From the NCBI RefSeq assembly GCF_002287235.1, contig NZ_LMVP01000002.1:1-51763 (forward strand): a stretch of 51,763 nt of DNA. Direction: 5' to 3'. Below, in pieces: positions 21,088 through 37,631 of the stretch. Positions within the stretch are counted from its first letter, which is position 1; the number at the start of each line of letters is the position of its first letter. The stretch comes from Methanosarcina spelaei. Lineage in GTDB: Archaea; Halobacteriota; Methanosarcinia; Methanosarcinales; Methanosarcinaceae. Made by a program: the position numbers and the translations under genes. The notes beneath the pieces are model-generated. The model searched no databases. It worked only from the letters and a program-made list of their open reading frames with translations, and was not told the origin of the DNA.

Positions 21088-21137
21088 ATGTGGGAAATAA
21101 AGAATCACGTTGAAAGTAAATTAAAGGAATGGTTTTA

Positions 21138-21344
21138 ATGTTTAGAGAAGAAAGTCGCTCAGTCCCTGTCGAAGAGGGCGAAGTTTACGATGTAACAATT
21201 CAGGACATTGCTCGTCAGGGAGACGGCATCGCTCGCATTGAGGGTTTTGTAGTCTTTGTCCCGGGCACCAAAGTTGGTGACGAGGTTCGGATTAAAGTCG
21301 AGAGAGTACTTCCCAAGTTTGCATTTGCAAGCGTTGTCGAGTAA
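21138..21344 (+). CDS. TRAM-domain RNA-binding protein 2
   Basis: 68 residues, MFREESRSVPVEEGEVYDVT followed by the conserved TRAM barrel. It differs from copy 3 by a single residue (Val for Ile in GFVVFVP). The start at 21138 is preceded by AAAGGA nine bases upstream. It lies 50 bp after copy 1 on the same strand, with no terminator between them, so all four are probably co-transcribed from the promoter near 20660. Confidence 0.92.
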   Translation: MFREESRSVPVEEGEVYDVTIQDIARQGDGIARIEGFVVFVPGTKVGDEVRIKVERVLPKFAFASVVE

Positions 21345-21399
21345 ATGCAGGAAAATAAAGTTACCACGTTAAATTCAGTAAGTTAAAGGAATGGTTTTC

Positions 21400-21606
21400 A
21401 TGTTCAGAGAAGAAAGTCGCTCAGTCCCTGTCGAAGAGGGCGAAGTTTACGATGTAACAATTCAGGACATTGCTCGTCAGGGAGACGGCATCGCACGTAT
21501 TGAAGGTTTTGTTATCTTTGTCCCGGGCACCAAAGTTGGAGACGAAGTCCGGATTAAAGTCGAAAGAGTTCTTCCCAAGTTTGCATTTGCAAGCGTTGTC
21601 GAGTAA
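21400..21606 (+). CDS. TRAM-domain RNA-binding protein 3
   Basis: 68 residues, almost the same protein as copy 2. At DNA level the first 90 coding bases of copies 2 and 3 differ at about one position, whereas the second half has about ten mostly synonymous changes. This points to a recent duplication or gene conversion in the 5' half. The start and ribosome-binding arrangement is as in copy 2. Confidence 0.92.
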   Translation: MFREESRSVPVEEGEVYDVTIQDIARQGDGIARIEGFVIFVPGTKVGDEVRIKVERVLPKFAFASVVE

Positions 21607-21659
21607 ATACAGGAAATAAATCATATCAACTTCAATTTAAGTCATTAGGAATGGTTTTC

Positions 21660-21866
21660 ATGTTCAGAGACGAAAGTAGCTCTGTTCCTGTTGAAGAAGG
21701 CGAAGTTTACGATGTGACTATCCAGGACATCGCTCGTCAGGGAGATGGCATTGCTCGTATTGAAGGTTTTGTTATCTTTGTCCCAGGCACTAAAGTTGAC
21801 GATAACGTCCGGATTAAAATCGAAAGGGTTCTTCCCAAATACGGTTTCGCCAGCCTCGTTGAATAA
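21660..21866 (+). CDS. TRAM-domain RNA-binding protein 4
   Basis: 68 residues; differs from copies 2/3 at FRDESSSVPV near the N-terminus and at the C-terminus (KVDDNVRIKIERVLPKYGFASLVE), where Gly-Asp-Glu becomes Asp-Asp-Asn. It is the last gene of the array and is followed 28 bp later by a strong hairpin terminator. Its upstream box is AGGA rather than AAAGGA. Confidence 0.91.
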   Translation: MFRDESSSVPVEEGEVYDVTIQDIARQGDGIARIEGFVIFVPGTKVDDNVRIKIERVLPKYGFASLVE

Positions 21867-36904: not shown

Positions 36905-36955
36905 AAAAAACGTTATATCATGGGTCAGTTATATTGATCAAGTACAAAAGAGGTG
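36905..36955 (+). promoter_or_regulatory. radB promoter and ribosome-binding site
   Basis: A BRE/TATA element AAAAAACGTTATATCA at 36905-36920 puts the transcription start near 36940-36945. The Shine-Dalgarno AGGTG at 36951-36955 (within gaggtgtcatttc) is 7 nt ahead of the ATA codon at 36963. Together they place the start of translation at 36963 and not at the internal GTG (37035), which has no such site. Confidence 0.7.
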
Positions 36956-36962
36956 TCATTTC

Positions 36963-37631
36963 ATAGAGAAATTATTATCTTCCGGCTGCAAGCCCCTTGA
37001 CGAACTTCTGGAAGGAGGCTTCGAGAAAGGGATTGTGACTCAAATCTTCGGACCTGCAGGAACCGGGAAAACAAATATCTGCATTCAGCTTGCAGTGGAA
37101 TGCGTAAAACAAGGGCAGAGAGTCATCTTCATAGATACCGAAGGGCTTTCTCCTGTCCGTTTCAAACAAATTGCAGGGGAAAACGCAAAAGAAATAGCCA
37201 GAAGCATAATTATCTATGAACCCCTGAATTTTGAGGAACAATATGCGGCCGTAAGAGAGGTGGAGAAAATAGCTAGTGAGAATATCGGTCTGGTGATCCT
37301 GGATTCTGCAACCTCATACTACAGGTTCGAGCTTGAAGACGATGAGACAGGCATGAAAAGCCGCAGAGAACTTGCTAGCCAGATAGGATTTTTGCATGCT
37401 CTTGCCCGCAAATACGGTTTTGTTGCAGTCATAACTAATCAGGTGTATTCCGATATTACCTCAGGAGGGGTGCGCCCGCTTGGTGGTAGTTCTCTGGAAC
37501 ACATTTCAAAGACGATTATCCAGCTTGAAAAAACTGGCGAAGGAACCAGACGTGCCATTCTGTATAAACATCGGTCCTGCCCGGAAGGTTCGAGTGCAGA
37601 ATTTAGAATTACAGCCGAAGGTATTCGCTAA
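36963..37631 (+). CDS. radB: DNA repair and recombination protein RadB, apparent AUA start
   Basis: RadB is a RecA/Rad51-family ATPase of euryarchaea that assists RadA in recombination. From 36963 it has 222 residues, the normal length: EKLLSSGCKPLDELLEGGFE, Walker A GPAGTGKT (about 32-39), IFIDTEG, Walker B LVILDSATS, and the conserved LGGSSLEHISKT. There is no ATG, GTG or TTG in frame between the Shine-Dalgarno site and the conserved N-terminus; the codon at the expected start is ATA. The internal GTG at 37035 would remove the conserved SGCKPLDELLEGG segment. Either AUA is used for initiation or the base is a mutation or sequencing error. Confidence 0.9.
   Translation: MEKLLSSGCKPLDELLEGGFEKGIVTQIFGPAGTGKTNICIQLAVECVKQGQRVIFIDTEGLSPVRFKQIAGENAKEIARSIIIYEPLNFEEQYAAVREVEKIASENIGLVILDSATSYYRFELEDDETGMKSRRELASQIGFLHALARKYGFVAVITNQVYSDITSGGVRPLGGSSLEHISKTIIQLEKTGEGTRRAILYKHRSCPEGSSAEFRITAEGIR

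Follow-up and report, generated by a model that had tools for sequence, protein, structure and literature searches.

Among bacterial genes, infC and pcnB have conserved AUU start codons, which are explained by the control of the level of their protein products. In Archaea, starts other than AUG, GUG and UUG are treated as near-forbidden and are usually passed over by gene finders. At the level of initiation factors, bacterial start triplets without a 3' G are reported to be subject to discrimination by IF3 (PMC4611024), and a discrimination against non-canonical starts is described for aIF1 in Sulfolobus (PMC8211752). Small ORFs with the non-ATG starts TTG, GTG and CTG are reported in Methanosarcina mazei by a ribosome-profiling paper whose main text mentions neither AUA nor RadB (PMC11456600). 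Furthermore, in the open PMC literature searched, no report was found of an AUA start of radB or of conserved starts at AUA, AUU or AUC (hereafter AUH) in Methanosarcina.

Here, we describe the radB gene of Methanosarcina spelaei, which very probably starts at an AUA codon, as judged from the sequence and its comparison among relatives. Like infC and pcnB, it is a housekeeping gene with a conserved AUH start that is non-canonical, and it differs from them in being an archaeal recombination gene, in the codon, which is AUA, and in the factor concerned, aIF1 rather than IF3; moreover, infC controls its own initiation factor, whereas radB encodes none. With the small ORFs of M. mazei (PMC11456600) it shares the genus and a non-ATG start, but the codon is AUA instead of TTG, GTG or CTG. 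The window, that is, the whole stretch of 51,763 nucleotides analysed, is contig C2 of a draft genome of 5.09 Mb in 559 contigs, and the features of the locus are the following:

36913 to 36919, plus strand: TATA-box-like element TTATATC, about 50 nt 5' of the AUA, from the window sequence
36950 to 36955, plus strand: Shine-Dalgarno site GAGGTG, with a gap of 7 nt between GGTG and ATA, from the window sequence
36963 to 36965, plus strand: putative AUA start codon (107 family genomes, 101 with ATA and 6 with ATC; one third-base parsimony step)
36963 to 37631, plus strand: radB coding sequence, 222 amino acids and stop, from profile and structure matches
37035 to 37037, plus strand: GTG at codon 25, the nearest canonical codon 3' of the ATA, rejected as a start (GTG in 38 of 107 genomes; codons 9-24 of coding type)

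An open frame of 241 codons extends on the plus strand from 36906 to the stop at 37629-37631, and ATG, GTG and TTG are absent both from its in-frame codons 36906-36962 and from the ATA up to codon 25. The initial annotation, which had proposed an AUA start with an AGGTG Shine-Dalgarno site spaced by 7 nt, a TATA box and no in-frame canonical codon before the conserved region, is thus borne out for all of these elements, the last of them from the upstream stop to codon 25; its next canonical candidate, the GTG at 37035, is indeed the first one downstream and is rejected as a start on the evidence given below. A sigma-70 promoter scan of the leader was set aside as unsuited to archaea. The product passes the cut-off of the profile TIGR02237 (recomb_radB; 263.8 bits against 172.4) and scores 238.2 with a second RadB model, NF006861, under its cut-off of 278, and RadA models match the 222 residues only from model residues 78-83 onward. 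By sequence, the protein belongs to the same family as the archaeal RadB of Thermococcus kodakarensis (structure chain 2cvf) and Haloferax volcanii. Elsewhere in the window, three adjacent short ORFs of similar sequence (MVLMFREESRSVPVEEGEVYDVTIQD and alike) at 21120-21866 form a small tandem gene family.

The start region was read across the family Methanosarcinaceae (f1), in which 111 genomes were searched for RadB and 108 matched at an E value of 1e-40 or better; RadB at this cut-off is missing in G057, G077 and G102, whose completeness is 65-72%, and setting aside one partial match (G056) left 107 readable genomes of 13 genera, Methanosarcina, Methanolobus, Methanococcoides and Methanohalophilus among them. 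Of the 107 genomes, 101 start radB with ATA and 6 with ATC, and ATG, GTG or TTG occurs at this position in none of them; two genomes (G062 and G067), in which the alignment put the start one codon too late, were placed by eye and counted at the earlier codon. The six ATC genomes are all six members of a single genus (g6), which we guess to be Methanimicrococcus. Genus g8 has ATA at the radB start on its named copy, L092 (Methanofrustulum, the counterpart of G056); the RadB of this copy (L092:2001-2969) seems about 100 residues longer than its relatives, judged from the match length. All 30 genomes of the genus of the window have radB, and all 30 start it with ATA, which settles the comparison among related Methanosarcina that the initial annotation had proposed. 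An assembly or sequencing error at 36963 could be imagined, the window being part of a draft of 559 contigs, but the 30 ATA starts, in single-contig assemblies as well, refute it and leave it a negligible probability; the earlier doubt about the reads at 36963-36965 is likewise answered by 107 assemblies with ATA or ATC, several of them single-contig. Read from the sequences, the AUA is a trait of the whole family and not a local oddity, and other genes of the genus do likewise.

The surroundings of the codon are also conserved. GGTG is found 5-7 nt 5' of the start codon in 104 of the 107 genomes, the other three (G076, G043 and G044) having variant purine-rich strings instead, and a TATA-like string occurs at most 75 nt upstream in 103, its distance from the start being 49-53 nt in 76. 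As a rule, archaeal transcription starts about 25 nt 3' of the TATA element. Since this element sits about 49-53 nt upstream, the ATG or TTG that some species carry at -45 is probably outside the transcript. In 57 of the 107 genomes, the window included, an in-frame stop lies 5' of the start codon with no canonical codon in between, and in 41 this stop is at most 30 nt away. The combination regarded as typical of infC and pcnB, namely a start other than AUG, GUG or UUG that no canonical codon precedes in frame, is found in the radB of these 57 genomes.

These data bear on the alternative that RadB starts upstream, most likely at the GTG within GAGGTG, the AUA being an internal isoleucine codon. 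A spacing of 6 nt puts this GTG in frame 9 nt upstream, where it is open in 28 of the 107 family genomes and in several genomes of a related family (f5), so that a GTG start at -9 could be used in those 28; in all 30 Methanosarcina, however, a spacing of 7 nt takes it out of frame, and the 57 genomes just mentioned offer no canonical codon between the in-frame stop and the AUH. For the radB of the window itself an upstream start is refuted, no in-frame canonical codon being present 5' of the ATA. Moreover, an internal isoleucine would be expected to show all three of its codons, and elsewhere in radB isoleucine is in fact encoded by ATA (38%), ATC (35%) and ATT (27%), with all three mixed at conserved isoleucine columns. 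As a general account, the upstream start is very unlikely.

The evolution of the codon was followed by parsimony on a radB tree built without codon 1 from 104 sequences of at least 200 codons. A single third-base step suffices at codon 1, against 12-27 steps at the nine other columns with at least 90% isoleucine; over 84 conserved radB columns of the same tree, the median number of third-base steps is 20 and the lowest is 2. With AUH in 107 of 107 genomes and one step against 12-27, the conservation of this start across species is beyond expectation, a feature looked for in genes of the infC and pcnB type. Divergence within the genus marks the beginning of the coding sequence: just 5' of the ATA the per-site differences at the first, second and third codon positions are 0.16, 0.11 and 0.16, with no codon periodicity seen from -15 to -1, at codon 1 there are 0 differences per site, and in codons 9-24 the values are 0.04, 0.05 and 0.39. 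This third-position pattern indicates that coding starts at or shortly after the AUA and before the GTG at codon 25. An internal start at that GTG (37035), with the conservation upstream of it incidental, could still leave a protein able to bind ATP, because the Walker A motif (GPAGTGKT) follows codon 25. Such a start is nevertheless highly improbable, given that codons 9-24 evolve as coding sequence, that the valine of this column is encoded by GTG in just 38 of the 107 genomes, that the first canonical codon 3' of the start falls anywhere between codons 3 and 157 in the family, and that 2cvf aligns with the protein of the window from residue 4.

Outside the family, the homologous codon was read in 22 of the 34 genomes of f5 and is ATA in 16 (15 and G151, whose ATA is by eye one codon off the counted register), ATT in 4 and ATG in 2. 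Six of the f5 genomes with ATA or ATT (G164, G170, G180, G169, G161 and G172) have no canonical codon between the upstream stop and the start. The two ATG genomes, G160 and G167, carry it at precisely this codon, which confirms the start site by natural variation. In family f2 the codon is ATT in G111 and G113 and ATG in G115 and G116, and in family f4 it is ATG in 9 of the 14 genomes read, both placed by eye; five genomes of an f4 genus, g24 (L191, L193, L194, L196 and L202), are without ATG and have an in-frame GTG and, further on, ATC. In family f3 (L215-L225, L262-L266) the N-terminus of RadB is longer, with CTG, TTG or ATG as possible starts. The radB start in f3 and in genus g24 may therefore be non-AUG too, with CTG, TTG or ATC as possible codons. 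In f6 and f7, 52 genomes were searched and 46 had a RadB match; the 30 read of f7, an outgroup family of the same class, all have ATG. In contrast with the AUA and AUC of Methanosarcinaceae, six loci of Halobacteria have GTG at the aligned start of RadB. The AUH start of radB thus characterises f1, most of f5 and a part of f2, and may have had one or several origins. Taken with its persistence across 13 genera, the upstream in-frame stops, the near-constant spacing of the Shine-Dalgarno site and the coding-type divergence that begins only after the codon, the ATG of the two f5 genomes further supports the AUA start first proposed from the window.

Other genes with AUH starts were sought with a screen for AUH behind a Shine-Dalgarno site in 400 kb from each of three Methanosarcina genomes, the codon being required in both of two genomes. 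Of 407 pairs, 12 matched, against 1-8 matches with the eleven control codon sets, and antisense frames or chance account for several of the 12; with controls so close it proves little by itself and was used as a source of leads only. A simpler screen, for proteins conserved 5' of their first canonical codon, was discarded, being swamped by antisense ORFs and missing radB when set more strictly, as canonical codons occur by chance upstream of it in G006. Two of the leads were pursued further:

L281:6748-7128 (G006): DUF2111 gene, loci L354-L383, putative ATT start in 28 of 28 located
L293:7956-9083 (G006), minus strand: bactofilin-like gene, loci L384-L412, putative ATT or ATC start in 29 of 29

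In the DUF2111 gene (PF09884), a GGTGA-type site followed by ATT occurs in all 28 located of the 30 Methanosarcina loci fetched. Ten genomes have no canonical codon upstream, and TAA directly precedes the ATT in G014 and G015; in G018 ATG directly precedes it. A longer DUF2111 paralogue (B_455/C_1307) shares the ATT. In 29 Methanosarcina genomes, the bactofilin-like gene (PF04519, above cut-off) has ATT (19) or ATC (10) at the putative start, with no upstream canonical codon at all in 13 genomes and the next one 3' at codon 46-49 in most. The conserved ATT and ATC of these two genes indicate that AUH starts extend beyond radB. Two further cases were noted: a DnaD_N-like gene (C_1340 of G008, A_1484 of G006, B_81 of G004) begins with ATG-ATA in two of the genomes and with ATA-ATA in the remaining one, possibly a change from ATG to ATA in a single species, and a DUF5817 protein (A_1014 of G006, B_481 of G004) has no canonical codon before frame residue 82 in G006 and perhaps starts at CTG.

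We consider it probable that radB is started at the AUA by the normal initiator tRNA with the help of a strong Shine-Dalgarno site and that the start is kept weak to hold RadB low; in this reading, comparison shows the codon and how well it is conserved, as well as the Shine-Dalgarno site and the normal tRNA, and the weakness in vivo and the low-dose purpose are inferred. A short leader would set the GAGGTG at the right distance from the AUA, and the ordinary initiator Met-tRNA, with anticodon CAU, would be placed on the AUA in spite of the third-base mismatch, held there by the Shine-Dalgarno site. Because of this mismatch, and in line with the discrimination described for aIF1 and IF3, initiation at the AUA would be possible but weak. 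In the six genomes searched, the initiator-type tRNA genes carry CAU, and no UAU initiator tRNA was found, two TAT and one GAT pattern matches being not tRNAs according to ARAGORN. A conversion of the AUA to a normal start after transcription, or its reading by a special initiator tRNA, is scarcely plausible in the light of these tRNAs and of the AUC and AUU that related genomes carry at this position.

A single transition would turn AUA into AUG, yet the latter occurs in none of the 107 family genomes. This speaks for selection against AUG, and we regard it as rather likely that the AUA is kept by selection for weak initiation. The reason proposed is that RadB, as a mediator, should be kept scarce in comparison with RadA. 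On genetic evidence in Haloferax, RadB has been proposed to be a recombination mediator aiding the polymerisation of RadA on DNA, and in Pyrococcus furiosus, of another order of archaea than Methanosarcina, it is reported to be about 200 times rarer than RadA (PMC5480776). Some observations run counter to this dosage proposal, namely the ATG at the homologous codon in 2 of the 22 f5 genomes, the use of ATG in f7, in the majority of f4 and in some of f2, and the other AUH-start genes of Methanosarcina, for which a dosage reason is not obvious. The AUA could instead be the start and persist by tolerance, if a strong Shine-Dalgarno site made AUH about as good as AUG and the codon were held by inertia or by a constraint on the DNA or mRNA. 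The several AUH-start genes of the genus and the two f5 relatives with ATG would agree with this; it is rather doubtful, since AUG is so near and never taken in the family, whereas comparable codons of this tree show 12-27 third-base changes.

AUA, AUU and AUC may possibly, and we propose this tentatively, form a distinct and conserved class of start codons in Methanosarcina and its relatives, serving a set of genes such as radB (AUA), the DUF2111 gene (AUU) and the bactofilin-like gene (AUU/AUC), with translational control through the strength of the start and an archaeal factor such as aIF1. If this is true, the class would have been unseen so far because gene finders mainly seek ATG, GTG and TTG. 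The start of radB also implies that some N-termini in these genomes may be misannotated. A start held throughout the family at AUA or AUC, one transition from AUG, would be natural evidence that weak initiation can be selected, and the AUA of radB allows the choice of start codons by the archaeal initiation machinery to be put to the test, and provides a handle on the dosage of RadB in recombination.
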